From: a virus | Virus record (IMG/VR): IMGVR_UViG_3300032333_000196 | Location: 1 to 45,745 of that record | Length of the DNA: 45,745 nucleotides | Strand: one strand, 5' to 3' | Shown here: positions 8,804 through 43,236 of the stretch, in pieces | Layout: every line of letters starts with the position of its first letter | Position numbering within the stretch: the stretch's first letter is position 1 | Translations under genes and position numbers: made by a program | Notes under the pieces: model-generated | Databases searched by the model: none | What the model was told of the DNA's origin: nothing | The model's input: only the letters and a program-made list of their open reading frames with translations

Positions 8804-9266
8804 GTTGAACTTCGACGACATTCTGTATGTCGCCGAGAACATGTCCGACTGGGACAAGCGTGAAATCTACGCAGGTCGGTGGACCGAGGACCCCTACGAC
8901 TTCGCCAAGCAGGTGCACGACATGGGGGCGGTAGGCTTCATCACTCACTACGACGACAAGCCCGTGTCTGTTGTCTGTGCCTACCCGATTTCACCTACAC
9001 TTTGGAACGTCACCATGTTCTCGACCGACCAGTTCGACAAGACGTGGTACACGACCATCAAGTACATCAAGCGTCTGTTCATCCCCGCCATTGTGTCCAC
9101 GGGTGCACTCCGTGCCGAGTGCCGTTCGATGGACGGCCATGAACTGGCACATCGATGGCTCGATGCCATCGGGTTCAAGAACGAGGGAATCAACCGAATG
9201 GTCGGCAAGCACGGCGAGGACTTCTATGTTTTCGCCTTTACTAAGGACTGTCTGCAGACAGATTGA
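8781..9266 (+). CDS. Internal virion protein A, T7 gp13-like (GNAT-fold family)
   Basis: 161 residues overlapping the nozzle gene by 23 bp. The sequence FDDILYVAENMSDWDKREIYAGRW..., HDMGAVGFITHYDDKPVSVVCAYPISPTLWNVTMFSTDQFDKTWY and LAHRWLDAIGFKNEGINRMVGKHGEDFYVFAFTKD closely follows the gp13-like family, which has a GNAT-type fold but is usually thought to act in virion morphogenesis. The DRYK-like acetyl-CoA loop is not convincing, so enzymatic activity is doubtful. The last codons (CLQTD) are encoded by the CTGTCTGCAGACAG palindrome. Confidence 0.78.
   Translation: MNSTSLSKLNFDDILYVAENMSDWDKREIYAGRWTEDPYDFAKQVHDMGAVGFITHYDDKPVSVVCAYPISPTLWNVTMFSTDQFDKTWYTTIKYIKRLFIPAIVSTGALRAECRSMDGHELAHRWLDAIGFKNEGINRMVGKHGEDFYVFAFTKDCLQTD
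9248..9261. promoter_or_regulatory. CTGTCTGCAGACAG palindrome at gene 3' end
   Basis: Identical to the 14-bp palindrome at 3001-3014. It overlaps the last codons of the gp13-like gene and ends just before the next start codon at 9273. Confidence 0.4.
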
Positions 9267-9272
9267 TTGACG

Positions 9273-9890
9273 ATGTGCTTTTCATCTGGAGATGGCGGTG
9301 CCGCAGACCGTGCTCGGGCTGAGGAAGAAGCACGCCAGCAGCGAATCCGTGAGGGTTCGAAGCGAATCAACGAGACCTTCGCCGAGTTTGACGACGGCTT
9401 CTTCAAGAAGCGTCAGATGGAGTATCAAGCCTCCCAGCGTCCCGAAGTGGACCGCCAGTACAAGGAAGCCCAAAGCAACATCATGTACGGTCTGGCCCGA
9501 AGCGGCCAACTTGGCTCGTCTGAGCGTACCCGCCAGTTGGGCGTGGTCGGTCGTGAGCGTGATGCCGCAGCCCTCAAGGTCGCAGACAAGGGCATGGAGT
9601 ACGCCAACCAGGCCAAGGCACAGGTCGAGCAGTCCCGAACGGACCTCATGAACCAACTCAACGCCACTGGTGACTCTCAACTTGCCGCCAATCAGGCCGC
9701 AAACCGCATGAGCGTCCTGCGTGCACGGCCTGCGTTTGAGTCCCTAGGCTCCCTTTTTGAGACGTCTGGCGGTATCGCCAAGAACGTCAGACAGGCCGAA
9801 TACTACAATCCAGGCTCCCCTGGTTGGTCTGGCCTTAACCCGATGAACCCAGGCAAAGGTGCTGCGTCTCAACGCATCGTAACCAACTAA
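9273..9890 (+). CDS. Internal virion/ejection protein (small), coiled-coil rich
   Basis: 205 residues from ATG 9273 (a TTG six bases upstream is also in frame). The N-terminus MCFSSGDGG is followed by a strongly helical, charged region (RARAEEEARQQRIREGSKRINETFAEFDDGFFKKRQMEYQ). A second helical region follows (ERDAAALKVADKGMEYANQAKAQVEQSRTDLMNQL), then a Gly/Pro-rich tail. Small proteins of this type precede the gp14-like protein in many podoviruses and are ejected or form part of the core. Function is assigned by order and character. Confidence 0.65.
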   Translation: MCFSSGDGGAADRARAEEEARQQRIREGSKRINETFAEFDDGFFKKRQMEYQASQRPEVDRQYKEAQSNIMYGLARSGQLGSSERTRQLGVVGRERDAAALKVADKGMEYANQAKAQVEQSRTDLMNQLNATGDSQLAANQAANRMSVLRARPAFESLGSLFETSGGIAKNVRQAEYYNPGSPGWSGLNPMNPGKGAASQRIVTN

Positions 9891-18300: not shown

Positions 18301-21300
18301 GAAGTCCTCCAAAACAAGCAGTACGGCGGAGTGAACCTGCACGAGTTCGCATCCGAGTGCATGACCAACCCAGAGTTCCAAGCACAACTGTCTGCGATGA
18401 AGTTCTCGGAGAACAAGAGCATCATGCAGGTCTTTAAGGATGCCGTTGCCCAGATTCTCGGAATCGACTCGGCCAAGGCCGAAGGCACCTTGCTCCGTGA
18501 GGCCATGGAATCCACCATGGAGGTCGCCGCCACGAAGATTGAGGACGTCTCAAAGCCAGGTGAGGAGTTCTACTCCAACCTGCAGGAAGAACGCAAACAA
18601 CGCAAGATGAGGGGTGGAATGTCTGAAGCCGATGCTGATGCTGCTGCCAAGGGCGAACTCTCGCTTCACCGTGAAGGAGGCTCTGACCTGTTTGACCGTG
18701 AGCGTGGTGTCAGAAATGCTGGAAGGTCGTATGAGGACGTGCGTGCAGACCTGGACGCCGCAAAGAAAGCCGACACATCCAAGATGAGTGCCGTCGATGA
18801 GTTTCATCACATGCGTGAAGTCGAACGCCTGGAGCGTGAGGTGAAAATGATGGAGGATGAGATGAGAAATGTCCGCTCCAAAACCCCTTCGTACGACAAG
18901 GCCCTCGAAAACCTTCGACGCCTAGGCAAGGAAAACCCCACTTATGACGAGGTCATGAATGAGGTTGACCGAATGGACGACATGAGAAGCAGCGGTTCCT
19001 ATGAGCCCCGAGGCCTTGAACGTGACCGACGGCGTTATCTCAAAGGGAAGACCGACATGGAAATCGAAGCCGAGATGATTCGTGCAAAGGACGAATCCGT
19101 GGACAGAGACTTCGAAGACAGACAGGTAATGCGTGACGCAGACAGGCTTGCCAGTTCTGGAGAATGGGAGGAGCAGACGGAACTTGACCCAGGCGATTAC
19201 CAGAATCCAGCCAGCAATAAGAGCGTCGGCCGTGCTATCCGTGAGGAAGTCCGTGCCCACCAGAACTCGGTCGAGGACTTCGGCAAGTGGTTGAAGTCCC
19301 TGGACGCCGAGTCAGACAGCCGAAGCGTCTCCAGGAAGTGGACCAATCGGACCACCGACTTCGTGACGGCCTCGTTCCTGCAGGCGGCCCAAGGCGAGTT
19401 GCTCAAGATTGCCGAACGGTACGATTCCCCTGGTGCCATGCGTGTCAGCGGCATGCTGAACGGCACGCTCGCTGGACGCACGGACAGTGCCAGGGACATG
19501 GGCTACCACAGCGAGGTCAGCACCAACACCATCAAGTTCAACAACAGGGTAGCCAACACCATCAGGGCCTTCGAGTCTGAACTCCGTGGCATGTCCACCT
19601 CCGAGCAGCGTGAACTCCTGGAAGTCCTCGGGCGTGAGATGACCAAGGACGGTCTGCCGTCTGACCCCAAGTTGGCCAAGGCCGTCACGGAACTTCGCCA
19701 ACTGTACAAGGACATGTTCTTCTACCAGAAGCGTGCTGGGGTGAAACTTGACTGGGCTGGCGACACTTACGTCCCCCGTATGCTTGACAACTCCAAGGTC
19801 CTCGCAGACAGGGATGGCTTCGTCAACGCCGCCCAGAAGGCCTACGAGGCCAGCGGTCTGGACCCAGTCGAGGCCCTCGGTGCGGCCGTGCAGTGGTACG
19901 ACAACATCGTCCTCGGAGACAACGGGTTCAGTTACTCCGAAGGCGGCGGCTTCATCTTCGACAGCGGCAACATGAACGGCGAGCCCAAGCACACCCGCTC
20001 CCGCAAGTTCGACAAGTACGCAGACAGCCTCCTGGACAGGTTCTACAACCGAAACATCATGGACGTCACCCAGGCCTACGTCGGCCGTGCCGTCAGGAAC
20101 GCCGAAATCTCCCGCAGGTTCGGTGCCGACTTCGGCAAGTACCAGGAAATCCAGAGGTCCATCATCCGTGACGAAGCCAACGCCAAGGGCGTCGGCAACG
20201 GCGGTATCGTCCGTGAGTTGAACAACAACGTCGCCGCCCAACTTGGTGCCAACGGCGGAAGCGGCGTCATCAAGAACATCTCGAACGTGGTCAACTCGTA
20301 CACGGCCATCTCCATGCTCCCCCGTGCGACCTTCTCGTCGCTCACCGAGCCCGTGGTCATGGCCATCCGAACTGGCCGCATGACGGACGTCTTCAACGCC
20401 TACAGACACAGCATGGTCCAGTTCGGCAGACAGTTGGCCAGCCTGCCCCCCGACTACCGCACCAAACTGGCCGAGGACATCGGCGTCGTTGCGGCCCATG
20501 CGGTCAGCGGCTTCACGTCCTCCTCCGTCAACGGACGCTTCCTGAGCGACTCCGTCAACACCGCCTCCAGCCGTGTCACCTCGCAGTTCTTCCGACGGAC
20601 TGGTCTGCACCAGTTCACCGAGGGCACCCGTGTGGCCGCCGTCGCCATGGGCGAGGTGTTCCTCCGCCGTCTGGCCCGTGACATCAGCGAGAATAACGAC
20701 ATCAAGGCCTCGAGCACACGCTACCTGCGTGAACTCGGCATCAAGGACGTCGAAGGGTTCTCGAGGTTCGTGAAGACCCTGGAGGGCATGGATGAAGCCA
20801 CCCGTCTGGACGCCGTCACGAACAACAGGGCCTACCGAAACGCCCTCGTGAAGTTCGCCGAGCAGACCATCATGAACCCCAACGCAGGCACCCGTCCCCG
20901 CTGGGCCGCCCACCCGATTGGCTCCATGTGCTACAACCTGCAGTCCTACCTCGGTGCGTTCCACGAGAACGTGACGAAGCGTGTCATGCGTGTGTCTGCG
21001 GCTGCCGCCAGCGAGAAGGGTCTGACGGTCTCAGACAGGGTTCGCATGGCTGGTCCTCTCGCCACCTTCCCCGTTCTTGCCATGGCAGCCTACGCCCTGA
21101 ACAACAACGTGCGTGAGGAACTGTTCACCGACCCTGCCCGCAGGTTCGACGACCCAGACAGCCTTGGCATGAAGCAACTCCGTGCCCTGTCCCGCTCCAA
21201 CATCCTCGGTCGATTCGACGCCATCGTCAATCTGGCCACCAACGCCAAGTACGACAAGGACCCCGCCACGGCCCTGGTCGGCCCTGGTCTCGGCATCCTG

Positions 21301-21606
21301 TCTGAAGGCATCAAGGGGGCCAAGGACTACTTCGGCGACGACAACTCCAAGAACACGAACACGGCCGAACGCCGTGGCCATCGTCTGCTCTGGGACATCG
21401 CCATCAGGCCCCCTGTCAACGCCGTCATGGCCGTAGCCACCCCTGGACGGTTGTCTGCCCCGTTCGGTGCCGCCGCCATCCAGGCCGTGTCCCACCCTGC
21501 GGTTCGTGAGAACTACGTCGAGAACATGGCGGGCCCGCCTGTCGACCCGAAGAACAGACCCGTGAAGCAGAACTTCCTCGACGAACTCCAAGGCCAAGGG
21601 GAATGA
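12391..21606 (+). CDS. Giant polyvalent virion protein with zincin and GNAT-like domains
   Basis: 3,071 residues, about a fifth of the window. Visible parts in order: an N-terminal virion-type region (1 to about 560); Ala/Pro low-complexity linkers (about 690-860); helical charged segments; a long Glu/Arg/Ala coiled coil (about 1334-1417, repeats like ARRQEEE); a GNAT-like stretch with RRNGFATGLI (about 1655); and a zinc-metalloprotease motif HEITH (1880-1884), followed downstream by LHEFASECMTNPEFQ, which could give the third ligand. The C-terminal half is helical, with AHPIGSMCYNLQSYLGAFHENV near 2845-2865, resembling the polyvalent-protein (LPD-type) tails described by Iyer, Aravind and colleagues. 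Such proteins are packaged and injected to counter host defences or modify targets. Individual domain calls beyond HExxH are tentative. Confidence 0.8.
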   Translation: MENALSEYLRSWVIKEGIDPVYLNTPEGQKLVRDEIARVTKGTDNTATGLIAGGTYDYPQAVETKNATGTMPQVDPATGSYVTQPNRHSILGVKTNVSSQMPGAPGYPALSGVVIRDKDGSTFEMSPDGALRPYSTPNLPSIQAPQERSVGQIVGDLLTKIPVEAARGVLSAKDALFGPPENPWVELPNDPRGVRNPVNQSPYYPTASPGENALYGKMGIVPAGQEGNTPLYGYKPWVPESTVVDQAKKYGGFMGSMGTGMVSRITDSINNNGIPIYGPNGLNQPAVSQAFDLTQDDNMLTGGIKAVGNNALGLADFLTSPMMVGVTAGGAAVGGMNTLAATPRVQPVPTFPGPGLGGAPQMWYKIPGQVGRFPARWHNATLGSQAANTPNAVRLANALSTGVQADFALGLGSHALSSAGDVINNTFGDGVPVEQPVYTPYSAEWYQQLGEQMQQTGDTTLQTPYSSLNQKSGTQAVSSAVDAGLSGLFAHQIASHTLAGDSIPNIINPRGQDQLAQRNRETLLASLLKGQPTGISPREQQILNAQADNTFLGQERVPEGSHVLEAVPRADGKGMQAVPFTSEVDLIDKTKGIQGTIDESERLRIRQEFEQFRRSMENMDLSMNQANLLAASGKPVRGVGPAIKPKDVEVKKGGEVTSPLGVPEVNGVPATKQGQVQGQAQVTLNPEATAAAPAAAPAVDMAAIDQKIKALQDKLREMVMDPNTADKDIKAARNELKAAVREKDAAPQAAAAPAPAPTATTAPAAPTATAAAPTLADVTAAAIPKPTAKPTTKPVAPPEKAPTPTVAETANAAGGGAPATPPPARPTQKQVFYDEAVLPPQTDADRALYGRDIPTSIPIPAGNEGKNFKFMVYDRQTKATQWIEADNPLNFKQVRERALEQYGDSAVVVQMRTIIPSGEQVKNRKVRAEMPYEARVREKKGGGERIPEDQRPPQIKPREAPDRDAAALLEQVKDPRRLSYDEVVRLAEQGNSVAKEELLSRQRQMSGDKADRRATRLDGLKPTVESADVLKKRIDETPGQIRTLEAEVVELNKHAVKMGIRGKTPEGQKQMADPKNFPNGRTPAMVRREIERKRDAWSAAKSELNNRTRQQQGWVDVRGKKTLKSNEPDLTPMDRPGNEGKAPSAPTPAGHRSGDMPRISGVHALRQHKGDLSRLTNDQLAEVQKDLTSKGHTDKDKTEEGKTLRKVNHALDRRALKAKGDEQLMDLQDLNTRKQSIPGELEAERLRLSKGIDTLSGPEKSKIIENIKDLEGEQRRIDDELAYRRRKEAARRSTYGEGNPGAKEGNVTVPPKPEKLPAPGDKEAPKQPAPDAAEAARRAEAERAQKEAADKAETQRREAEARAESERQAAEEARRQEEERAAAEETRRQEEETRRQDEEARRQEEEARRKEQEEDTPEDDFVSSVTENVENLEGVDGFSQAVQKQMFGTKKNPGLLAKIRESIESYEAATTPAEKRAAIEKVREHQSELESIRDDLQEKHDNTPESLQETDAYYNREEAISALEDAIDGIMEATYRNEPKDTDIDRGAPADNKMPAGRERVSIDAEQIVTDIQNAYDRRGPNMPISNGLRDALGKYYDKTGVKLEVKVKTPDSGAYFEVVLVEPGSGRQVASAEFTVEFNGDVYVARLDTSGDFRRNGFATGLIAEGLRSTGEQFVKSGIEKRTKVSLHDASEGGASGRALENVVGSVKTDEAMSDEVSPEVAGRFDPTRQYSRKGSGESMDKGAAARGRWAEHEARLQHLSPGQRRVVDRIMKGGANVADVLKDISESFVGENSENGKMARYAKFLLDNADARSLSAAVKMQTEGGRITSDDSQYIGPSAGNSMRSGPRSRGTIEMSYHHVLTTDGVGSGKGGISVIMHEITHAVTANKINRALVGFTGDYVNKGTVGTAYLDKVRAFVKSESSDPGVRRLARAYLKYIENADKSKPINRESIESDAKQSIGVSSNNLNEVLQNKQYGGVNLHEFASECMTNPEFQAQLSAMKFSENKSIMQVFKDAVAQILGIDSAKAEGTLLREAMESTMEVAATKIEDVSKPGEEFYSNLQEERKQRKMRGGMSEADADAAAKGELSLHREGGSDLFDRERGVRNAGRSYEDVRADLDAAKKADTSKMSAVDEFHHMREVERLEREVKMMEDEMRNVRSKTPSYDKALENLRRLGKENPTYDEVMNEVDRMDDMRSSGSYEPRGLERDRRRYLKGKTDMEIEAEMIRAKDESVDRDFEDRQVMRDADRLASSGEWEEQTELDPGDYQNPASNKSVGRAIREEVRAHQNSVEDFGKWLKSLDAESDSRSVSRKWTNRTTDFVTASFLQAAQGELLKIAERYDSPGAMRVSGMLNGTLAGRTDSARDMGYHSEVSTNTIKFNNRVANTIRAFESELRGMSTSEQRELLEVLGREMTKDGLPSDPKLAKAVTELRQLYKDMFFYQKRAGVKLDWAGDTYVPRMLDNSKVLADRDGFVNAAQKAYEASGLDPVEALGAAVQWYDNIVLGDNGFSYSEGGGFIFDSGNMNGEPKHTRSRKFDKYADSLLDRFYNRNIMDVTQAYVGRAVRNAEISRRFGADFGKYQEIQRSIIRDEANAKGVGNGGIVRELNNNVAAQLGANGGSGVIKNISNVVNSYTAISMLPRATFSSLTEPVVMAIRTGRMTDVFNAYRHSMVQFGRQLASLPPDYRTKLAEDIGVVAAHAVSGFTSSSVNGRFLSDSVNTASSRVTSQFFRRTGLHQFTEGTRVAAVAMGEVFLRRLARDISENNDIKASSTRYLRELGIKDVEGFSRFVKTLEGMDEATRLDAVTNNRAYRNALVKFAEQTIMNPNAGTRPRWAAHPIGSMCYNLQSYLGAFHENVTKRVMRVSAAAASEKGLTVSDRVRMAGPLATFPVLAMAAYALNNNVREELFTDPARRFDDPDSLGMKQLRALSRSNILGRFDAIVNLATNAKYDKDPATALVGPGLGILSEGIKGAKDYFGDDNSKNTNTAERRGHRLLWDIAIRPPVNAVMAVATPGRLSAPFGAAAIQAVSHPAVRENYVENMAGPPVDPKNRPVKQNFLDELQGQGE

Positions 21607-21980
21607 CGCCAAGGGAGCGAAAAACGGAGGGGATGCGGAGACGACGAAAGAAGTTTCCGCATCTCACCCTTCTCGCTCTTGCCAAGCAGCGTGCCAAGCG
21701 TGACGGTCTGCCGTTCAATCTGTCTGGCGAAGACATCGTCATCCCCAGGCGTTGCCCTGTGCTCGGCATCACGCTGAAGCACGGCAAGAACAAGAAGGTC
21801 CTCGAGGAGTCGCCGACACTTGATAGGATTAAGCCGATTCGTGGGTACGTCAAAGGCAACGTCATCGTCATTTCGTCGCTGGCCAACAGAATCAAGAGCA
21901 CGGCCAACTGGAGGCAGATACTGACTGTCGGTGTCTGGCTGAAACGCTTGACTGCCAGCCGCCGCAGACAGACTGTTTAG
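21603..21980 (+). CDS. HNH-like endonuclease (small, phage type)
   Basis: 125 residues, overlapping the giant gene by 4 bp (ATGA). After a basic N-terminus (RERKTEGMRRRRKKF) comes RRCPVLGITLKHG...SPTLDRIKPIRGYVKGNVIVISSLANRIKS. The DRIxPxxGYVxGN segment is the signature of a small HNH-type nuclease family often found in phages. In such families the His and Asn bind the metal or DNA at the scissile site. It could be a packaging-associated nicking enzyme or a homing-type gene. The placement inside the virion operon favours the former only weakly. Confidence 0.7.
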   Translation: MTPRERKTEGMRRRRKKFPHLTLLALAKQRAKRDGLPFNLSGEDIVIPRRCPVLGITLKHGKNKKVLEESPTLDRIKPIRGYVKGNVIVISSLANRIKSTANWRQILTVGVWLKRLTASRRRQTV

Positions 21981-35304: not shown

Positions 35305-35409
35305 TCAGTTACGCCACTTGGACGCCACGCATGCGTTGACCAGCAGGCACGTGATGACCGCCAGCATGGCGAGCCAGAGGGCGAAGAAGACGCAAGCCCA
35401 GCGGCTCAC
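35305..35409 (-). CDS. Single-span membrane mini-protein (34 aa)
   Basis: Starts with GTG at 35409-35407 overlapping the TGA of the upstream gene (GTGA). Sequence MSRWACVFFALWLAMLAVITCL then LVNACVASKWRN has one hydrophobic helix with a short basic end. Last gene before the operon terminator. Overlap coupling and hydrophobic pattern support it, but it is short. Confidence 0.45.
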   Translation of the reverse strand: MSRWACVFFALWLAMLAVITCLLVNACVASKWRN

Positions 35410-35921
35410 GCTTGGCCCCCCTTCGTCTGCGTCTGAGCCTTGGCCTTCCGCTTGGCCCAAGCCGCCTTCATGACGGCCGAGTGACGGCGACGCTTGGCAC
35501 GTTCCTTGCGGGCCTCCTTGAGGGCGTCCGTGTCCTTGGGCTTGCGGTCCTGCGTCATCTCATGGAGGTCCATGTAGGCGAAGTTAAGACAGCCGAGGAT
35601 TCGGCCCGTCATCGCCAGTTGGAACTCACGGGGGTTGTCGCCGTGGTGCGTCTCGTTCAGACCGAGGACCGACTTGAGCAGGTCACCCGCCGCCTGCATG
35701 GCGACGTGGATACGCTCCTTGGCCACGGTCACGTCCTGCATGTCCCGCTTGATGACGTTACGCAGACCCTGAAGGGTCCGCACGTCCGAGGGGGACAGAC
35801 GGGGGCGACCGAGGTTCGACTTCATCCGCATCAGGCTGTGGCCGTCTGCGAAGTGCTTGTCCTTGTTGCTGAGGTTATGCGTCGCCGTCGTGGCTTCGCT
35901 CTTGGCTTTGTTGTGACCCAT
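35406..35921 (-). CDS. Basic helical protein, unknown
   Basis: 171 residues after hammerhead ribozyme B; its mRNA would start at the ribozyme's cleavage site. The N-terminus MGHNKAKSEATTATHNLSNKDKHFADGHSLM is polar. The middle SPSDVRTLQGLRNVIKRDMQDVTVAKERIHVAMQAAGDLLKSVLG is helical, and the C-terminus KEARKERAKRRRHSAVMKAAWAKRKAKAQTQTKGG is very basic, suggesting nucleic-acid contact. No motif recognised. Leader ACCACCTTCCCCCCAC before ATG. Confidence 0.6.
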   Translation of the reverse strand: MGHNKAKSEATTATHNLSNKDKHFADGHSLMRMKSNLGRPRLSPSDVRTLQGLRNVIKRDMQDVTVAKERIHVAMQAAGDLLKSVLGLNETHHGDNPREFQLAMTGRILGCLNFAYMDLHEMTQDRKPKDTDALKEARKERAKRRRHSAVMKAAWAKRKAKAQTQTKGGQA

Positions 35922-35947
35922 GTGGGGGGAAGGTGGTTTTGTCTGAC

Positions 35948-36011
35948 GGGCTCGTCAGTGGACGCATGACGTCCAGACAGGGCGGGCTACGGCCCCCGCC
36001 CTGTTTCGCCC
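35948..36011 (-). ncRNA. Hammerhead ribozyme B (type II)
   Basis: Read 5' to 3' on the minus strand: GGGC (stem II, 36011-36008), GAAA (36007-36004), stem III ACAGGGCGGG/CCCGCCCTGT (10 bp, 8-base loop GGCCGTAG), C17 at 35976, stem I TGGACG/CGTCCA (6 bp, loop TCATG), CUGACGA (35958-35952), GCCC (stem II). All conserved core positions are present (C3 U4 G5 A6 N7 G8 A9, G12 A13 A14, A15.1-U16.1, C17). Cleavage is expected between 35976 and 35975. Stem II is the open one, hence type II. Its first base abuts the TAA of gene 36012-36542. Confidence 0.88.
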
Positions 36012-36542
36012 TTAGTTGTCCTTGGACTGGTCACCTCCGAAGTCGAAGCCCTCGGGGAACCGTCCGCTGGGCGGGGGAGTGTCCGTGGGCTTGTCTGCGT
36101 CCTTGCGGGTCTGCGGAGGCTTGTCCGTGAAGCGGTGGGTCGTCTGGTCGTCCATGAAGTCGTCGATGAACTGGCCGACGTCCTCGTGCATTTCCTTGAT
36201 GAGCCCCTGCGTCTTGGACTCGACCTTGACGCCGTGCTTCAGACAGTGCTTGAAGACCATCTCGTCATGCTCGCTCAGTTCCTTGCCCAAGCGGCAGACG
36301 ACCGTGCCCAGCAGGCAGATGCCCTGTCTGAGGAGTTCGGCCTGTTTCATGGCTTCGTCGTCGTCGCCGTCCTTGAGAGCCTCGAGGAGGTTCGTCACGT
36401 TGTCCTTGAGGGCTCCGCTCGTCACCGCCCCGATGACCATCCCGTGGGAGAGGTGGCCGAGGAAGTTGAGGAAATCCTGCGGGGGCATGACGATGCCGTC
36501 CTTCGGGAGGTCCGAGTTGCTGTCTGCGTTGTTGTCGGTCAT
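36012..36542 (-). CDS. Unknown helical protein of the minus-strand operon
   Basis: 176 residues starting MTDNNADSNSDLPKDGIVMPPQDFLNFLGHLSHG; the frame runs further upstream, but the C-rich leader CACCCAGATACAYACGCAC precedes ATG 36542. Helices MKQAELLRQGICLLGTVVCRLGKEL and MHEDVGQFIDDFMDDQ follow, then a Pro/Asp-rich tail (DKPPQTRKDADKPTDTPPPSG). No catalytic motif. Immediately followed by ribozyme B, which would cut its mRNA 38 bases after the stop codon. Confidence 0.6.
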   Translation of the reverse strand: MTDNNADSNSDLPKDGIVMPPQDFLNFLGHLSHGMVIGAVTSGALKDNVTNLLEALKDGDDDEAMKQAELLRQGICLLGTVVCRLGKELSEHDEMVFKHCLKHGVKVESKTQGLIKEMHEDVGQFIDDFMDDQTTHRFTDKPPQTRKDADKPTDTPPPSGRFPEGFDFGGDQSKDN

Positions 36543-36577
36543 GTGCGTATGTATCTGGGTGTGTATCTGGGTGGGTG
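36543..36577 (-). promoter_or_regulatory. CACCCACCCAGATACACACC leader element
   Basis: Minus-strand sequence just before ATG 36542 (CACCCACCCAGATACACAC, then CCAGATACATACGCAC). No SD. One of eight similar C/A-rich leaders in this operon. Confidence 0.5.
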
Positions 36578-36583
36578 GAAAGT

Positions 36584-36901
36584 TCAGCCGTTGCGGTGAC
36601 GGCGATAGAAGGTCTCGAGGAAGATGAGGCTGTCTGCGTTGACGTGGTCGTCGCCAACCTTGCCCTTGTGCACGGACTTGCACAGGCTTGCCAGCACAGG
36701 CTCAAGGGCGGTCAAGCGTCCACCCGTCACCTCCGTCATGAGCACCTGCAGTCGGATGACCGCTCGGGAAAGGTCGGGGGAGTCGACCCCCCGATTGGTG
36801 AAGCCCGTCTTCCCACCCTCGACCGCATCGCCGTATTTGGCGACGACGGTCTTGAGCAGGGCGGTGATTTCAGCCGCATTTTTATTGGAGATTTTTCGCA
36901 T
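36584..36901 (-). CDS. Small helical protein, unknown (105 aa)
   Basis: Start chosen at ATG 36901-36899 (MRKISNKNAAEITALLKTVVAKYGDAVEGG), because a promoter lies directly upstream and the longer frame (to 37012) reads through it and into the preceding gene. SPDLSRAVIRLQVLMTEVTGGRLTALEPVLASLCKSVHKGK is helical. With -10 TATCTT at 36917-36912 transcription would start about four to ten bases before ATG, so the mRNA may be almost leaderless. Confidence 0.62.
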   Translation of the reverse strand: MRKISNKNAAEITALLKTVVAKYGDAVEGGKTGFTNRGVDSPDLSRAVIRLQVLMTEVTGGRLTALEPVLASLCKSVHKGKVGDDHVNADSLIFLETFYRRHRNG

Positions 36902-36911
36902 CGATGGTTGC

Positions 36912-36939
36912 AAGATACCCAAAGCCGACGTTTTGTCAA
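36912..36939 (-). promoter_or_regulatory. Promoter with overlapping TTGAC-AAAAC-GTCGG operator
   Basis: -35 TTGACA (36939-36934), 16-base spacer, -10 TATCTT (36917-36912). The -35 is also the left half of GAC-AAAAC-GTC (36937-36927) followed by GG. The sequence downstream of the -10, GCAACCAT, is shared with the promoter at 38691-38718. Confidence 0.65.
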
Positions 36940-36957
36940 GCGACATTTTGGCGGGCC

Positions 36958-37620
36958 TCAGTATTCGAACGTGAGCATGACGGTGGTCAGGGGTACGTCC
37001 GTGGGTGCACACCCTTCCGTGATGATGTACACGTCACTCGCACCCAGTCGCCAGCACCCAAGCAGGCGGTGGCCCTCGGACACCTTCGTGCTCTTGGGCT
37101 CGGGCATGGGCTGGACCTCGTCAGACAGGGTCTTGTCATGGGGAGGCAAGGCGAGTTCGTTGACCGCCTCGTCTTCGGCGTCCAGACCGTTGCCCCAGCA
37201 TCCACCCGCATGCACGGTCAGCAGGGCGTGGATGACTTCGTTGGACAGACAGTCCTCGGCCCCGTTGGTGATGACCACGTTGCCTAGGTCGATAGACCTA
37301 CGGTGGACTTGGTAGGGGATGCCTTGCGTCCGTGACGTGGCACTGATGATTTCAATCATCTTGTCGCTGTCTGACGGCAGACCAAGGTCGTCGTCGCCTT
37401 CGGCGTTGTCGTCCTCGTCTTCGGGTTCATCGATTTCGATGTCGACGAACTCCATGATGATGCGGAGCATCCCGTTGTAGTCGGTCCCGTCAGACATGGC
37501 CGTCTTCGTGCGAGCGTTGAACCGCTCGAGGGACTTCGGCCTCTGTCTGAGGGCGTTGGCGGCGGCTCCTAGGATGAACCAGATGTTGCCGTCGGGATTG
37601 CGGATGATGGGCTTGGACAT
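36958..37620 (-). CDS. Acidic protein of unknown function
   Basis: 220 residues: MSKPIIRNPDGNIWFILGAAANALRQRPKSLERFNART at the start, an acidic run VDIEIDEPEDEDDNAEGDDDLGLPSDSDKMIEIIS near 85-105, and a C-terminal half GHRLLGCWRLGASDVYIITEGCAPTDVPLTTVMLTFEY. Leader CACCCACCCAGACACACCC before ATG. No known motif; the N-terminal helix (DGNIWFILGAAANALRQ) is similar in character to small phage proteins with an amphipathic start. Function unknown. Confidence 0.6.
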   Translation of the reverse strand: MSKPIIRNPDGNIWFILGAAANALRQRPKSLERFNARTKTAMSDGTDYNGMLRIIMEFVDIEIDEPEDEDDNAEGDDDLGLPSDSDKMIEIISATSRTQGIPYQVHRRSIDLGNVVITNGAEDCLSNEVIHALLTVHAGGCWGNGLDAEDEAVNELALPPHDKTLSDEVQPMPEPKSTKVSEGHRLLGCWRLGASDVYIITEGCAPTDVPLTTVMLTFEY

Positions 37621-37655
37621 GATGGGTGTGTGCTTGGGTGTGTCTGGGTGGGTGA
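37621..37655 (-). promoter_or_regulatory. CACCCACCCAGACACACCC leader element
   Basis: Upstream of ATG 37620 on the minus strand. Same C/A-rich family as 36543-36577. Confidence 0.45.
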
Positions 37656-37662
37656 AGGTGGG

Positions 37663-38022
37663 TTAGGCGGGCTCGTCCTCGTCGGACGGGGCGGTGTCAC
37701 GGACAGGTCGGAAGACCTCAAGGATGGTGTCGATGTCCCAGACAGGGGGCTTGTCTGAGCCGTCTTGGGTCGTGCCCATCACGAGGGCTTTCCCATAGAT
37801 GGGATAACCGTTGATGGTCATGAGCGTGTTAGGCTTGAGAGCCCCCTCGTCATCCACGTAGGCGACGTCACCGTAGGTGTTGAGGTGGACGACGGTGAAC
37901 GTGTCTGAGCCGAGGGCTTCGTTGATTTCTTCGAAGTGACCGATGGTCACCTCTTTCACCTTGAGGGTGGTGCGGTTCAATACCTCTACGAGGTAAGCGG
38001 ACGTTTGCTTGGGTGTGGGCAT
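37663..38022 (-). CDS. DUF3846-like phage protein
   Basis: 119 residues. QTSAYLVEVLNRTTLKVKEVTIGHFEEINEALGSDTFTVVHLNTYGDVAYVDDEGALKPNTLMTINGYPIYGKALVMGTTQDGS resembles the DUF3846 layout (short strand, then VVxL...DVAYVDDEG...PIYGKALVMG). The acidic tail is APSDEDEPA. Role unknown in the family; commonly in phages as an early gene. Leader ACCCACCCAGACATACCCACCCAC. Confidence 0.6.
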   Translation of the reverse strand: MPTPKQTSAYLVEVLNRTTLKVKEVTIGHFEEINEALGSDTFTVVHLNTYGDVAYVDDEGALKPNTLMTINGYPIYGKALVMGTTQDGSDKPPVWDIDTILEVFRPVRDTAPSDEDEPA

Positions 38023-38053
38023 GTGGGTGGGTATGTCTGGGTGGGTGAGAGTG
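38023..38053 (-). promoter_or_regulatory. CACCCACCCAGACATACCC leader element
   Basis: Before ATG 38022 on the minus strand; no SD. Confidence 0.45.
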
Positions 38054-38069
38054 TGTGTCTGCGGGGGCT

Positions 38070-38288
38070 TTAGCCCCCCATTTCGATGGCCTGGAACAGG
38101 ACGGACTGTTCCCAGTTGGTCAGGCGTTCTTGGGCGTCGACCTTTTTCAAGGACACCCGAAGGGTGTCGGCCCGCATCCTGTCCGTGGGGATGACGATGC
38201 CTTTGGCAAGGCGGTCAATCCGTGCAGACAGATACTTTTCAGCCGCCGCCCTTTGGGCGGTATTGAGTTGGATGAACTTGGGAGGCAT
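38070..38288 (-). CDS. Small helical protein, unknown (72 aa)
   Basis: MPPKFIQLNTAQRAAAEKYLSARIDRLAKGIVIPTDRMRADTLRVSLKKVDAQERLTNWEQSVLFQAIEMGG is charged and helical with a mid-loop. Short spacing and its own leader (CACCCACCCAGATACACCC, then ACGCACATACC) support expression. No motif identified. Confidence 0.55.
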   Translation of the reverse strand: MPPKFIQLNTAQRAAAEKYLSARIDRLAKGIVIPTDRMRADTLRVSLKKVDAQERLTNWEQSVLFQAIEMGG

Positions 38289-38329
38289 GTGCGTAGGTAT
38301 GTGCGTGGGTGTATCTGGGTGGGTGAGAG
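38289..38329 (-). promoter_or_regulatory. CACCCACCCAGATACACCC leader element
   Basis: Before ATG 38288 on the minus strand, followed by ACGCACATACCTACGCAC. Confidence 0.45.
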
Positions 38330-38653
38330 TTATCGGATTTCAGACAGACCGAGGCCGACCTGTCGGACAGCACGGAGGTGGGCGTCCAAGTGCGGACGCA
38401 TCACGTCCACGTTGATTTGGGCTTCCTCGTAGCGGAGTTCCTTGGCCAGACGGAGACCGCTGTCTGCGAAGGACTCGAGGGTTTCGGCCTGCTCGAGCAT
38501 GCGGTTGAGCATGCCCACGGCCAGCCGCAGGTTGACCACCCGCACTTGGGCTTCCTCACGCAGGGCGTGGGCCTCAGCGACGGCCTTTTCGTGGCGTTTC
38601 TGAGCGTGGATTTCGTGCAGGTCGGGAGCGGTGTTTTCGTTCGTGTTTTCCAT
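38330..38653 (-). CDS. Small coiled-coil protein, unknown (107 aa)
   Basis: Start at ATG 38653 (MENTNENTAPDLHEIHAQKRHEKAVAEAHALREEAQVRVVNLRLAVGMLNRMLEQAETLESF); a further in-frame ATG at 38692 would begin inside the promoter's -10 region. Leader CCCAACCCACCCAGAACC, then ACAAAAAACC. The protein is helical, Ala/Glu/Arg-rich, and ends LRAVRQVGLGLSEIR. No motif. Confidence 0.6.
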   Translation of the reverse strand: MENTNENTAPDLHEIHAQKRHEKAVAEAHALREEAQVRVVNLRLAVGMLNRMLEQAETLESFADSGLRLAKELRYEEAQINVDVMRPHLDAHLRAVRQVGLGLSEIR

Positions 38654-38690
38654 GGTTTTTTGTGGTTCTGGGTGGGTTGGGAATGGTTGC

Positions 38691-38718
38691 ATGATGCCGA
38701 CTTTTTGTCGGTTGTCAA
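38691..38718 (-). promoter_or_regulatory. Internal promoter with perfect CCGAC-AAAAA-GTCGG operator
   Basis: -35 TTGACA (38718-38713), 16-base spacer, -10-like CATCAT (38696-38691). The spacer contains CCGACAAAAAGTCGG (38711-38697), a perfect inverted repeat with 5-base centre. GCAACCAT follows the -10, as at 36912. Confidence 0.65.
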
Positions 38719-38791
38719 GCAGGAGTTTTGCTGGGTATGCGTTATGCGTAGGTGTGTCCGTGGGTGTCTGTTATGTGCGTGACCGCAGGGC

Positions 38792-39457
38792 TCACTCGTA
38801 GCGAGCCCTCTCGGTCGAACGGTTTTCGAACGGCATGTCTTCCAGACAGACAATGTGCTTCACCTCGGGTGACGTGGACCTGTAATCACGGACAGTGCGG
38901 GACGTGACGTGCCCGTCGCCGTGGTCTACGACCACCGTGTCCCCACGGAAGACAAGACCTTCGGTCTTGCGGAAGTAGTCCCGCATGGCTTCGACTACGT
39001 CGACCTGTCTGTAGTCGGTCTTCGTCTTTTCGGCGTAGGCATAGACGGCGTCGGAGACGATGTGCGAGTCCGTGGGGAAACATGCGACCCCCTCATACCA
39101 CGTCGCCCAGCAACCGCCTTCGGCGGGGCTGAACTCGTAGAGTTCGATGCCGTAGAGGGTGACGAACTTGTCCTTGGGCTGCTTCGCAGACAGCAGGGCT
39201 TCGACCTCCTTTTCCAAGAGTGCAGAGCACTCCTTTCGCTTCTCGAGGACCGACTGCCACTTCTGTCTGGACTCCTCCTGTTCGGCTTCAGCCGAAGCGA
39301 CGGCCCGCTGGCGGTCCCACTCGGGGTCTTCCGTGTCAGGCTTGGTCTGCTTCGCAGTCCTCACCTTGACAGACAGCCTGCTGTATTCAGCAGACAGTTG
39401 CTCGAGGTGAAGGTCGAAGGCCGTGAGGTCGTTTTCGAGTTTCGTGATGATGTCCAT
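38792..39457 (-). CDS. Protein with coiled-coil N-terminus and beta-rich C-terminus, unknown
   Basis: 221 residues. Residues 1-90 are helical (MDIITKLENDLTAFDLHLEQLSAEYSRLSVKVRTAKQ, then EAEQEESRQKWQSVLEKRKECSALLEKEVEALL). Residues 100-221 form a separate region with YEFSPAEGGCWATWYEGVACFPTDSHIVSDAVYAYAEKTKTDY and RGDTVVVDHGDGHVTSRTVRDYRSTSPEVKHIVCLEDMPF. The parallel GCWATWYEGVACFPT resembles no family I recognise. Leader CACCCACCCAGAATACCC. Confidence 0.6.
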   Translation of the reverse strand: MDIITKLENDLTAFDLHLEQLSAEYSRLSVKVRTAKQTKPDTEDPEWDRQRAVASAEAEQEESRQKWQSVLEKRKECSALLEKEVEALLSAKQPKDKFVTLYGIELYEFSPAEGGCWATWYEGVACFPTDSHIVSDAVYAYAEKTKTDYRQVDVVEAMRDYFRKTEGLVFRGDTVVVDHGDGHVTSRTVRDYRSTSPEVKHIVCLEDMPFENRSTERARYE

Positions 39458-39498
39458 GGTGTGTGTGTGTTTTCGGGTGGGTATTCTGGGTGGGTGAA
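39458..39498 (-). promoter_or_regulatory. CACCCACCCAGAATACCCACC leader element
   Basis: Upstream of ATG 39457 on the minus strand; CGAAAACACACACACC then ATG. Confidence 0.45.
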
Positions 39499-39512
39499 AA
39501 GGTGCGAGTGGC

Positions 39513-39866
39513 TTAGGCGTTGCGGGACGTGGGGAAGTTGCGGTATTCGACGCAGACCGTCTTTAGACGGCCCTCCATGTAACCAGTGTTGAAGGACCAG
39601 ACGTCGACCGTCATTTCCACAGACGGCTCATTCATGTCCTCGGGGTCACCTACGGTGATTTCCCGCTCGTAGTTGGAGACGGCGAAGCCCCAGACCAGAC
39701 CGTCGAACTCGGCCCAGACAGTCCCCCAATGGGGGGAAGTCTTGACCAGTTCGGTCAACGCACGGACCTTCACGGGGTCCGATAGGACCGCCTTGTGTGC
39801 GTCGGTCAGACGGGGAAGGCTTTTGCCTTCGGGACGGGAGACCAGTTTTCCGATGATGTTGCTCAT
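39513..39866 (-). CDS. Small protein downstream of ribozyme A, unknown (117 aa)
   Basis: MSNIIGKLVSRPEGKSLPRLTDAHKAVLSDPVKVRALTELVKTSPHWGTVWAEFDGLVWGFAVSNYEREITVGDPEDMNEPSVEMTVDVWSFNTGYMEGRLKTVCVEYRNFP. The latter half is strand-rich. Its mRNA would carry the 3' part of ribozyme A at its 5' end after self-cleavage, then the leader CACCCACCCATAATACACC. No motif recognised. Confidence 0.58.
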   Translation of the reverse strand: MSNIIGKLVSRPEGKSLPRLTDAHKAVLSDPVKVRALTELVKTSPHWGTVWAEFDGLVWGFAVSNYEREITVGDPEDMNEPSVEMTVDVWSFNTGYMEGRLKTVCVEYRNFPTSRNA

Positions 39867-39904
39867 GTGTGTGTTTTTGTGGGTGTATTATGGGTGGGTG
39901 AAAA
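39867..39904 (-). promoter_or_regulatory. CACCCACCCATAATACACCC leader element
   Basis: Before ATG 39866 on the minus strand. The CATAATAC part resembles a -10 hexamer, so a promoter role is also possible. Confidence 0.45.
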
Positions 39905-39918
39905 GGTGTCTGCGGCGT

Positions 39919-39980
39919 GGGCTCATCAGTGGAGGTTTCACCTCCAGACAGCACCCCCTACGGGGTTCGCTGTTTCGCCC
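39919..39980 (-). ncRNA. Hammerhead ribozyme A (type II)
   Basis: Minus strand 5' to 3': GGGC (stem II, 39980-39977), GAAA (39976-39973), stem III ACAGC/GCTGT (5 bp) topped by ACCCC/GGGGT with GTAG loop and GA bulge, C17 at 39947, stem I TGGAGGT/ACCTCCA (7 bp, GAA loop), CUGAUGA (39929-39923), GCCC (stem II). All conserved core bases are present; expected cleavage lies between 39947 and 39946. Stem II is open, giving type II. It begins 12 bases after the stop codon of gene 39993-40967. Stems differ from ribozyme B but keep pairing. Confidence 0.9.
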
Positions 39981-39992
39981 TGTCTGACTACG

Positions 39993-40967
39993 TCAGTCGA
40001 ACTTGATGACGTAGCCAGCCTGTTCGAAGACCTTGGTCAGCGACGCCATGCTTTCAGCAGGGGTGTCATGCCGACCGTCCTCGAGTTTCGGGAAGTGCAC
40101 CGTCGAAGACGGTTCCTCAGACATGTCGACTTGTCGACCAGCACAACCGTAGCAGGCCGTCATTCGGTCTGAGACCGAACCCACGGGGGTCTGCATGGCC
40201 CCGACGTTCTCCAAGAAGGCGAAGCCTAGCCTGCGGAACACCGCAGGATGCATCAGCCAAGTGGCGATTTGGGTCAGGTCCAGCATGGTCCCAGCCCGCT
40301 TGATTGTCACCTTTTGGGTGACACAGAGCGGGGTCCGTCTGGCATCGCCCCAAGAGGACGAATGAAACGAAGTTTCAGTGACGATTTCGACCTGTCTGCC
40401 ACCCCGTTCAAGGGCATCGACAATCGCAACCAGTGCGGCCCCTCTGTTGGCGTACTGCTTCGCAGTGACGTAACAGTTGGCGGTCTGCGGGAACAGCAGA
40501 CGGATGACCTTAGTCTCTCCGAGACTATCTTCGTCGGGGTCGACGTCGTAGTGGCAGGGGTCTCCAGCACAGAAGGCACCGACGTCCAAATCTCCACCAG
40601 CCACGTCATGGTCAATGACCATGCCCTGCGTGGTGGATTGAGGCAACTGAGCGTAAGCATGATTGAGGTTTTTGACCCCTTCGGCGTAGCCGACTTTCGT
40701 CATGTCCACGGTGCCTTGGTAACCAAGGCCGTTGTCCCATTCCTCAGACGGCTCCTTCTGGGAAGCCCTGAAAGGGCTCGTGTTGGAGGTGGACTCCAGC
40801 CACTTCGTGAAGGCCGTGGTGTCGTCGTAGTCGAAGACTACGGAGAAACCCTTACCTTTCACGGTCTGGCCGTAGACTCTGAGCCCCTCTCCGAGGGGAT
40901 GGATGACCTTCGTTTTGCCAGTCCCAAACGTAAGTTTGGTCTGCGGGTTTTCAGCGGGGTTAGGCAT
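39993..40967 (-). CDS. Protein of unknown function next to AAA+ ATPase
   Basis: 324 residues. Features: VFDYDDTTAFTKWLE near 50; a run YVTAKQYANRGAALVAIVDALERGGRQVEIVTETSFHSSSWG in the middle, which has the strand-helix-strand feel of a Rossmann or von Willebrand A-type domain; and CYGCAGRQVDMSEEP near 275, a short Cys pair. A vWA-like partner for the neighbouring MoxR/CobS ATPase is plausible because such pairs are common, but the MIDAS motif DxSxS is not seen. Followed at 12 bases by ribozyme A. Confidence 0.6.
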   Translation of the reverse strand: MPNPAENPQTKLTFGTGKTKVIHPLGEGLRVYGQTVKGKGFSVVFDYDDTTAFTKWLESTSNTSPFRASQKEPSEEWDNGLGYQGTVDMTKVGYAEGVKNLNHAYAQLPQSTTQGMVIDHDVAGGDLDVGAFCAGDPCHYDVDPDEDSLGETKVIRLLFPQTANCYVTAKQYANRGAALVAIVDALERGGRQVEIVTETSFHSSSWGDARRTPLCVTQKVTIKRAGTMLDLTQIATWLMHPAVFRRLGFAFLENVGAMQTPVGSVSDRMTACYGCAGRQVDMSEEPSSTVHFPKLEDGRHDTPAESMASLTKVFEQAGYVIKFD

Positions 40968-41000
40968 GTCTGTGGGTGTATCTGGGTGACGGGTGATGGG
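40968..41000 (-). promoter_or_regulatory. CACCCAGATACACCCACAGAC leader element
   Basis: Minus-strand leader before ATG 40967; no SD. Confidence 0.4.
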
Positions 41001-41015
41001 TTGGGCAGACAGGGC

Positions 41016-42509
41016 TCAGAGAGCCCCCTTGTCTGCGGTTTCGGCGTCCTTCCGCTTCTTCTGGAGGGCTTTCAGCCCTTCCGTCAGACGTTCACGGACA
41101 GGCCGCTCTCCAATCTTGGAGAGGACGAAGATGTCGGCCAACCTTCCCATAGGGAAGCCAGCCTCGACCATCGCTCGGGCCCCGTTGATTGCGGCCCGAG
41201 GGGAAATCACGGTCAAGACGTTAGTCTCCCGAGCGATTTTGCGGAAGTCCACGACGGTCTGGCACCATTCCAAGGCCTTGGCCTTGTCTGCGTCAGACCA
41301 CGGCATCGATTTGACGACACTGACAGCGATGCTGTCATCGTAGTCACACTCGAAGTTGGCGAAGCGGTCCAGAGTTGCCATGTCCAACTTGTTGCGGCCC
41401 GAATACTCTCGGTTGGCACCGTTACCGTTGGTATTGGCCGAGGCCAAGAAGCGGAACTTGGGGTGGGCCTTCACTTTCCCATCGGGAAAGTCACAGAACC
41501 CGTTGGCCAAGGCGGCGTTCACAGACAGGAGTACCTGTGGGCTGGACGCATCGACTTCGTCGAACAGGAACAGACCGCCGTTTTCGAAGGCCTTGCGGAA
41601 CTCGGTGGTAACGTAGTTACCATGAGCGTCGTTGTAGCCCATCAGTTGGTAGGTCTTGGCTACCGCACCGCTGAAGTAGAACTTCAGCCCGAGCACCGTA
41701 GCGACCTGCATCCCGAGAGTGGTTTTACCACTCCCAGCGGGACCGAAGACTAGGACGCCGAAGCCACCGATGCGAAGCATCCTAGAGATTTCGTCGAGGA
41801 GTTGGTGCTTCTTGCTCCCCTTGGGGAGGGAGCCGAGTTTGAGTTCGTCGCTGTCGGGAACCTTCGGTTCCTCGGGTTCGTCCTTGGGCTTGGGCTCATC
41901 CTTGGGCACCTTCGGGGCCTTCGGCTCCTGCTTGGGCTTGGGCTGTTCGGGCTTCGGAGCCTTCGGCTCGCCGTCACCCTTCTCCCGAAGGGAGTCGAGT
42001 TCCTTGTCGGTCAGGTCGTTGTACACCTTCTGGAGTTCCTCCAGAGTGTGGTTGGCGATTTTCGAATACGGAACTTCGTTCCGAGTGCACCACTTTCGAA
42101 CGATGTGACGGTTTTTGGAGGTCACAACGGCTTTGCCGTCACGGGGGAGTTCGGGGTCACCTTCGGTGGGTTCGGTGCTGTCTGCGTCCCCTTCACCTTC
42201 GGTGGGTTCGCCGTCCTTGGCACCGTCCTTCCCTCCTTCGGAGGGACTGTCTGCATCCCCTTCGCCGTCGGTCTGAGCACCGTTTTCGGAGCCCTTACCT
42301 TCGGTAGGTTCGCCCTTGGGCTCGCCCTTGGGAGTGTCTGTGGGTGTGCTCGGGTTACCCGAGGCGGTTTTGGACGGCTCAGACGGGCCGTTTTCGGGGT
42401 CGGCGTCGCCTTGGGCATGTCCGTGGGTGCCTGAGGTGTCCGCAGGGGTCACGTAGGCTTCGCCGAGAATGAGTTCGTCGGCGTAGGGGTTTTGGTGGGG
42501 GTTAGGCAT
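41016..42509 (-). CDS. MoxR/CobS-like AAA+ ATPase with low-complexity N-terminus
   Basis: 497 residues. The C-terminal AAA+ module has VFGPAGSGKTTLGMQVA (Walker A near 256), GGLFLFDEVDASSPQVLLSVNAAL (Walker B), RFLASANTNGNGANREYSGRNKLDMATLDRF (sensor 1 / second region) and SPRAAINGARAMVEAGF (arginine/sensor-2 area), as in CobS-type MoxR ATPases known also in cyanophages. Residues 25-125 are Gly/Asp/Glu repeats (EPTEGEGDADS), and about 165-220 Pro/Lys repeats (PKPEQPKPKQEPK). It remodels a partner protein; the 324-residue neighbour may be that partner. First gene of the minus operon. Confidence 0.85.
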   Translation of the reverse strand: MPNPHQNPYADELILGEAYVTPADTSGTHGHAQGDADPENGPSEPSKTASGNPSTPTDTPKGEPKGEPTEGKGSENGAQTDGEGDADSPSEGGKDGAKDGEPTEGEGDADSTEPTEGDPELPRDGKAVVTSKNRHIVRKWCTRNEVPYSKIANHTLEELQKVYNDLTDKELDSLREKGDGEPKAPKPEQPKPKQEPKAPKVPKDEPKPKDEPEEPKVPDSDELKLGSLPKGSKKHQLLDEISRMLRIGGFGVLVFGPAGSGKTTLGMQVATVLGLKFYFSGAVAKTYQLMGYNDAHGNYVTTEFRKAFENGGLFLFDEVDASSPQVLLSVNAALANGFCDFPDGKVKAHPKFRFLASANTNGNGANREYSGRNKLDMATLDRFANFECDYDDSIAVSVVKSMPWSDADKAKALEWCQTVVDFRKIARETNVLTVISPRAAINGARAMVEAGFPMGRLADIFVLSKIGERPVRERLTEGLKALQKKRKDAETADKGAL

Positions 42510-42559
42510 GGTGTTTTTTTGGTTGGTTTTTGCCGTAGTGGCACCGACACTCTGTCTGG

Positions 42560-42577
42560 CCGACCCTTTGTCGTCAA
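42560..42577 (-). promoter_or_regulatory. Operator-like ACGAC-AAAGG-GTCGG upstream of AAA+ gene
   Basis: On the minus strand TTGACG (42577-42572) runs into ACGAC-AAAGG-GTCGG (42574-42560). Same half-site plan as the int promoter sites. No clear -10. Upstream of ATG 42509 and divergent from the TerS-like gene. Confidence 0.5.
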
Positions 42578-42596
42578 ATCTATTTTCAAAACGGGG

Positions 42597-42611
42597 TTGA
42601 CCAAAAGTCGG
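42597..42611 (+). promoter_or_regulatory. Operator-like TTGAC-CAAAA-GTCGG upstream of TerS-like gene
   Basis: -35-like TTGACC (42597-42602) with GAC-CAAAA-GTC-GG to 42611. A weak -10 AATGTT would start at 42620. Together with the minus site 20 bases away it makes a divergent control region. Confidence 0.5.
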
Positions 42612-42654
42612 TTTCGACCAATGTTTGCAAGGGTCAAATCGACGTCGAAAAAAA

Positions 42655-43236
42655 ATGAAAAATCTTCAAATCGGTTCGGGTCCAGACAGCGAAAACGTGC
42701 CCGAAAACGGGCCCGAAAATGGGCGTTTGCATGAGGGCATTTGCAGGGGTGCAAATGGGCGTCTGCACCCCGTGCTAAATGCAGAGGGTCTAACGCCCCT
42801 GCAGGAGGACTTCGTCCAAACGTATGTTCGGGTAGGTGGGTCCGTGGGCGTAGCGTGTGACGCAATAGGGATTTCGGCCTCGTCTGGTCGGCGTTTGCTC
42901 CGTCTGCCATTGGTCAAAACCGCTATTCAGACAGCCCTCGATTTAGGCCTGCGGACCGAGGGGGCCAGCCTCGCTTGGGGGTGTATCCGTGGGCTCCTGA
43001 CGGATGCGGGGACTCCCGCCAACGTGCGTTTTGCGGCCGCCCGCTGGACCCTAGAGCACTCTGGCCTTGGGCTTTCAGCCCAAACGCTCGCCCACGCACA
43101 CTCCTCTCCGCATTATGCGAGGCTGGCAGACCTGTCTGAGGTCGAACTTCAGGCCATAGTCGAAGCGGGAGTGCAGGACGGGGTGCAGACAGGGGGTCCA
43201 GACAGCCCGCCAATCACGCCCGTTATCTGCCCATGA
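42655..43236 (+). CDS. terS: Terminase small subunit-like protein
   Basis: 193 residues from ATG 42655 (a TTG at 42625 is also in frame). LTPLQEDFVQTYVRVGGSVGVACDAIGISASSGRRLLRLPLVKTAIQTALDLGL is the TerS pattern: LTPxQExFVxxYV, then an HTH and a short recognition helix ending LPLVKTAI. TPANVRFAAARWTLEHSG resembles the helical oligomerisation segment. It recognises the packaging site. It is separated from terL by the tail fibre. The N-terminal 40 residues are Gly/Asn/Glu-rich. Confidence 0.72.
   Translation: MKNLQIGSGPDSENVPENGPENGRLHEGICRGANGRLHPVLNAEGLTPLQEDFVQTYVRVGGSVGVACDAIGISASSGRRLLRLPLVKTAIQTALDLGLRTEGASLAWGCIRGLLTDAGTPANVRFAAARWTLEHSGLGLSAQTLAHAHSSPHYARLADLSEVELQAIVEAGVQDGVQTGGPDSPPITPVICP

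Follow-up and report, generated by a model that had tools for sequence, protein, structure and literature searches.

Genomic Setting

The stretch of DNA analyzed here (the window) is a virus record of 45,745 bases. Its plus strand carries genes for a helicase, a Cas4-type exonuclease, a primase and RusA, together with an ORF of 3071 aa (12391-21606) that is very large for a phage record of 45 kb. On the minus strand, a run of ORFs from 35406 to 42910 encodes an AAA ATPase, a DUF7192 protein, a DUF3846 protein and several unknown proteins, and it is within this run that two candidate hammerhead ribozymes, termed A and B, are found (Table 1), with B preceding the last ORF. As an earlier note on this DNA had stated, B begins on the first base after a stop codon, namely the TAA of the upstream ORF, which ends at 36012. 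The product of that ORF had no match among PHROGs families and only a weak, sub-cut-off match to TFX_C in Pfam, and a search for relatives of the downstream protein found none. No recognizable Shine-Dalgarno sequence precedes the downstream ATG, no terminator-like sites were seen on the minus strand near B, and a tRNA search of the window returned none. Comparisons with GenBank phages gave no match for the 34.4-42.6 kb region by Megablast and none for the two proteins flanking B by tblastn; related-locus searches with the downstream protein of B and with alignments of the ATPase and DUF7192 likewise yielded no confirmed relatives.

Table 1. Features of the ribozyme-bearing minus-strand region, in window coordinates.
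Feature	Position	Strand	Remarks
Type II hammerhead ribozyme B	35948..36011	-	sequence, scanners, sub-threshold Rfam RF02276 match
B stem II, GGGC/GCCC	36011-36008/35951-35948	-	4 bp, open
B GAA	36007-36005	-	
B stem III	36004-35995/35986-35977	-	10 bp including A15.1-U16.1, closed by a loop
B C17	35976	-	predicted cleavage 35976/35975, 3' of C17
B stem I	35975-35970/35964-35959	-	6 bp, 5-nt loop UCAUG
B catalytic core CUGACGA	35958-35952	-	
Core-tail hairpin CUGACG(AGCC)CGUCAG	35943..35958	-	-7.1 kcal/mol; enriched and N7-covarying in relatives
Predicted 5' leader of the downstream mRNA after cleavage	35922..35975	-	stem I and core-tail hairpins side by side; folding z = -3.9
ORF upstream of B	36012..36683	-	223 aa; TAA stop abuts B
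ORF downstream of B	35406..35921	-	171 aa; ATG at 35921, 21 nt past the end of the core-tail hairpin
Type II hammerhead ribozyme A	39919..39980	-	same compact subclass as B; sequence, scanner, sub-threshold RF02276 match
DUF7192 gene	39993..40967	-	directly upstream of A

Two Type II Hammerheads in One Gene Run

Read along the minus strand from 36011 to 35948, B has the letters GGGC GAA A(CAGGGCGGG)GGCCGTAG(CCCGCCCTG)T C TGGACG-TCATG-CGTCCA CTGACGA GCCC. The CUGACGA, the GAAA, the UC cleavage site and the stems from which the element had been recognized are all in place on this strand; the general hammerhead core (CUGANGA, GAA(A) and a UH cleavage site with the A15.1-U16.1 pair) is present, and the topology is that of type II, where loops close stems I and III and stem II is left open. 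A strict hammerhead scanner matched only A and B in the 45.7 kb window, against 0.017 matches per strand in mononucleotide shuffles of it, and a looser scanner again picked out these two alone, with 0 matches in 30 shuffles. The Rfam model RF02276 (Hammerhead_II) aligns with both copies end to end at 24.8 bits for A and 23.3 bits for B, each below its gathering score of 37 bits, and no match in the Rfam search of the window reached the gathering score; matches to RAGATH-23, PhotoRC-I and HOTTIP_1 were far under it and were set aside. Judged by its anatomy, B is a type II hammerhead and not a curated member of RF02276. Its identity is supported by the exact core and topology, the chance controls, the RF02276 alignment and the covarying relatives described below.

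The stems of A and B differ in sequence yet stay paired through compensatory changes, as the earlier note had observed (e.g., stem I pair 5 is G-C in one copy and C-G in the other). That note had also taken the two gaps as independent occurrences of one fold; the fold is indeed found in both, but long stretches are common to the two copies (GGGCGAAACAG, CTGTCTGGA and TCCACTGAYGAGCCC), so that A and B appear to be paralogues and not wholly independent occurrences. In the same way, the GTAG of loop III is kept between A and B but was rejected as a conserved element of the class, as only 10 of 293 compact relatives have GTAG in stem III. Just upstream of A (39991-39982, minus strand) lies GTCAGAC, the same letters as in the sequence following B, which is possibly a rearranged copy of a B-type tail.

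Compact Type II Hammerheads Between Phage Genes

Pattern scans, all but one of them in IMG/VR and the other in GTDB genomes, gave about 400 loci with 477 structurally valid type II hammerheads. The patterns fixed the exact core, a GTC site and chosen stem II letters, hence the counts below come from pattern-selected sequences and true frequencies will differ. Kinship was handled by dereplication, one-per-contig resampling and within-contig examples, with no further phylogenetic correction. Two groups could be distinguished by the length of the stem I strands, a long group (20-23 nt; 62 dereplicated copies) whose loop and tail motifs fit the loop I-tail pseudoknot of Perreault et al., and a compact group (17 nt; 293 dereplicated copies), including A and B, in which stem I consists of 6 bp and a loop that is mostly T-N-A-N-G.

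Most compact hammerheads sit in the gap between a stop codon and the start codon that follows. An ORF stop lies within -12 to +3 of the ribozyme start in 239 of 286 copies, compared with 21-30 of about 280 at control offsets, and in 115 of the 286 it abuts the ribozyme start and stem II or overlaps it by one base, while the next start codon follows at a median of 23-26 nt downstream. Up to seven compact copies occur per locus, and all copies keep to a single strand in 44 of 46 multi-copy contigs. Such stop-to-start placement and one-strand arrays are as predicted if these ribozymes process transcripts between genes.

The earlier note had proposed a search of related phages for covarying copies, and hundreds of relatives have now been found. 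In a set of 24 sequences, all six stem I pairs and one stem II pair show double-sided changes with 100% pairing; stem III was seen to vary while staying paired, though this was not formally counted. One locus (L269, position 2155, plus strand) bears a hammerhead with a stem III insert of more than 100 nt and an intact core. At its gathering score Rfam detects 0 hammerheads in 12 loci that jointly hold dozens of intact, covarying copies, indicating that the low score reflects the model and not decay. We thus describe a large compact type II subclass, located mostly between stop and start codons, that falls below the Rfam 15 cut-off in the loci tested.

A Tail Complementary to the Catalytic Core

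In the published type II consensus, loop I forms a pseudoknot with the tail. No such pseudoknot of at least 4 bp is available to B, whose loop UCAUG finds no complement in the tail GUCAGACAAAACC; its tail pairs instead with the catalytic core. The letters CGTCAG (35948-35943) are the exact reverse complement of CTGACG (35958-35953), a pairing that uses 6 of the 7 core nucleotides and the last base of stem II, so that the core-tail hairpin cannot coexist with the active fold. The earlier reading of B as a type II hammerhead stands in view of the core, the controls and the relatives, but it was incomplete in overlooking this tail, which lies just outside the element as then delimited. We propose a core-tail subclass having C(N7-complement)UCAG within 2-16 nt after the core, which includes B and leaves out A, where CAG alone matches.

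The tail was part of no search pattern, and enrichment was assessed without its N7 partner, as C?TCAG 2-16 nt after the core. This motif is found in 48 of 293 compact copies, against 2/293 and 3/293 at two downstream offsets, about 4 copies expected from composition, 2.8% at non-ribozyme CTGANGA sites in the same loci, and 0 of 62 in the long, pseudoknot-bearing group. Counted from the core, TCAG most often begins at +5 (24 copies), and beyond about +12 its starts fall to background. N7 is the variable base of the core, and the base facing it was left free in this search; the partners are T-A in 23 copies, C-G in 18, A-T in one, T-G in five and C-C in one, i.e., 42 of 48 Watson-Crick with five further G-U pairs (p about 5e-5; over 20,000 permutations of partners the mean was 22.5 and the maximum 37). 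With one copy per contig, 29.3 of 34 are paired versus 15.5. In a fixed-register alignment of the same 24 sequences as above, a set chosen for its tail, the sole free core-tail pair varies on both sides in 10 sequences, and the stems of the active fold (six pairs of stem I and one of stem II) covary fully. In tails with one mismatch the N7 bias is weaker (32/68, p about 0.002), and these were left out of the main claim; a complement of the core on its 5' (upstream) side showed no enrichment in the relatives.

Single phages (L084 and L361) hold both T-A and C-G forms. The second of these is a gene-by-gene array of seven compact hammerheads within 2.3 kb (7366-9687, minus strand), with a near-identical leader, CCTGAGGAGG, after each hammerhead and before the start codon. 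Every one of the seven carries the tail. Six have a stem II of 5 bp whose 3' strand supplies part of the tail, and in these stem II switches between ATGAC/GTCAT, where N7 is U, and ACGAC/GTCGT, where N7 is C. A dependence of this three-way kind is what two selected structures that exclude each other would leave behind, and the enrichment of the tail together with the N7 covariation makes the core-tail hairpin as a whole look selected. Two other uses of the tail were set aside: a terminator, as no T-run follows the hairpin, and selection of the tail as a means of escaping a strong stem II, as copies with the tail show no clear gain in stem II strength.

Ribozymes in Kindred Phages

To find kin of the phage, window proteins were compared by tblastn with the hammerhead loci. 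Three distantly related loci (L267, L307, and L325) have the ATPase-DUF7192 pair in common with the window at 23-43% identity and bear a compact hammerhead just after DUF7192, which is the position of A. Three others (L144, L156, and L168) have the replication module in common at 44-56%, and each carries one B-like, tail-positive hammerhead in a gap other than that of B; the latter two also encode RusA, and here the hammerhead is placed between primase and RusA. The earlier note had held that homologous phages lacking the core would count against a function. The gap of A keeps its hammerhead, whereas the replication-module kin carry B-like copies but not in the gap of B. From these comparisons a conserved position is seen for A and not for B, the flanking genes of which have no recognizable relatives.

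A further relative (L406) is GenBank MW202803.1, Podoviridae sp. ct52p938, having the ATPase and DUF7192 in common with the window. Its type II hammerhead (1949-2004) has stems different from those of B and a tail, GTCAGACAAA, identical to that of B. The annotated start of the hypothetical protein UOF82150.1 (CDS 1985-2233) falls inside this ribozyme, and the likelier start looks like an ATG that follows AAAGGGG about 25 nt downstream of it; ribozymes of this kind may therefore be a source of start-site misannotation in phages. The same phage has an annotated RNA ligase gene (20569-21669), for which 5'-OH and cyclic-phosphate ends could be substrates.

Lock, Switch, or Plain Cutter?

We consider it likely that B is a transcript-processing ribozyme equipped with a selected core-tail hairpin, its cleavage being deduced from the anatomy. 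In this scheme a polycistronic phage mRNA would be cut by B in the gap that separates one gene's stop codon from the following start, leaving the 4-bp stem II as the sole link between the products. The tail CGUCAG would then capture the core CUGACG in a local 6-bp hairpin and break stem II, so that the upstream product, ending in the stem III hairpin, is released and re-ligation becomes unlikely, and the downstream mRNA would be left with a 5'-OH end and the stem I and core-tail hairpins about 20 nt before its AUG. Predicted energies are consistent with such a course. The cost of separating the cleaved products drops from a median of 4.4 to 0.1 kcal/mol with the tail (1 M standard state), a gap much of which follows from how the tail-positive copies were chosen; with the separation penalty mostly removed, products should be released at cellular concentrations. 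That the hairpin serves specifically as a post-cleavage lock, with the leader role that this entails, is the proposal that we favor, at slightly less than an even chance.

The same energies also bear on the uncut RNA. For uncut B the fold with the core-tail hairpin is predicted at -44.7 kcal/mol and the active fold at -38.0 kcal/mol, and the hairpin is favored in 45 of 48 tail-positive copies by a median of 2.85 kcal/mol, although these secondary-structure energies omit the tertiary energy of a folded hammerhead and do not fix which state dominates before cutting. A hairpin favored before cleavage could slow the ribozyme, which speaks against the lock and fits a switch just as well. The main rival is accordingly an off-switch acting before cleavage, in which the nascent RNA partitions between the active hammerhead and the core-tail fold, and the fraction cut is set by a ribosome terminating on the abutting stop codon, by Mg2+, or by a protein or sRNA. 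Such partitioning would suit two folds that exclude each other and lie close in predicted energy, as well as the co-variation of stem II in the L361 array, and where the stop codon abuts or overlaps stem II a terminating ribosome could mask its 5' strand. The hairpin, however, is very short, forms locally and shows no trace of a sensor domain, neither a ligand pocket nor a factor site was seen, the tail is transcribed last, once the active fold can form, and neighboring copies within one phage differ in the presence of the tail; for the switch we would therefore allow a minority share, rating it rather unlikely. A further suggestion is that these are bistable phage hammerheads whose core has a second selected partner, the hairpin controlling cleavage or its reversal gene by gene along operons, which we put forward tentatively, at somewhat less than even odds.

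Around 84% of compact copies, and A as well, have no exact tail, from which it follows that on present alignments the tail is not essential. This agrees with a plain constitutive type II hammerhead next to a neutral or lineage-inherited complement, the more so as tails within a phage may be copied along with the ribozyme and related sequences inflate counts. An inherited tail would, however, hardly be expected to stand out against offset, composition and non-ribozyme CTGANGA controls, to retain its N7 covariation after one-copy-per-contig resampling, or to appear in T-A and C-G forms inside single phages, and we regard this reading as improbable. Since the repeat CTGAYG...CRTCAG is palindromic and A and B have the look of duplicates, it might also act in the DNA, as a protein site or as a recombination hotspot that moves ribozymes; yet five of the six non-Watson-Crick N7 cases are U-G, which is compatible with RNA, the loop varies in length, and the tail goes with compact hammerheads only and is absent from the long class, so that very little weight can be placed on this idea. 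Even less is left for a chance or degenerate hammerhead-like sequence devoid of activity, for which the score below Rfam gathering would speak, given the scanner nulls, the intact core and the failure of the same threshold on every hammerhead in the 12 loci mentioned above.

Comparison with Known Systems

Type II hammerheads clustered in phage and prophage operons were reported in 2011, when processing of long phage transcripts was proposed and cleavage was observed in vitro for three tandem arrangements, one of them also in E. coli (PMC3088659, Perreault et al., 2011). B has the core, topology, open stem II and between-gene phage placement of RF02276, and the ribozyme itself is a further case of what has been known since then. 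What appears new from the alignments is the core-complementary, N7-covarying tail, of which no published description was found in full-text searches of largely open-access literature. Bacterial hammerheads have also been found to be overrepresented in the neighborhood of Mu-like phage genes and of other ribozymes (PMC10085705). The non-circularly permuted hammerheads of that study are likewise natural variants, whereas the strands of B follow the ordinary type II order without rearrangement. The phage link is noted in reviews (PMC6155905, PMC10085705), and the biological role of prokaryotic hammerheads is regarded as an open question in the field (PMC6155905); a covarying hairpin that ties up the core suggests an action after, or instead of, constitutive cutting, and probably provides these cutters with a built-in lock or switch.

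The closest engineered parallel is RiboJ, a synthetic insulator that joins the sTRSV hammerhead to a 23-nt hairpin (PMC8794103). In outline the two are alike, as self-cleavage lets the downstream mRNA start with a defined structure and a hairpin stands before the ribosome binding site, on the side of B as a prediction. For a RiboJ-like insulator, i.e., a stable hairpin clear of the ribosome binding site, the predicted fold and spacing of B fit, but its downstream ATG lacks a recognizable Shine-Dalgarno sequence. RiboJ differs in being engineered, in deriving from a plant satellite RNA hammerhead, and in having its hairpin added rather than made from the core. If our reading is true, engineered ribozyme insulators and ribozyme switches would have their natural counterpart in the core-tail hammerheads.
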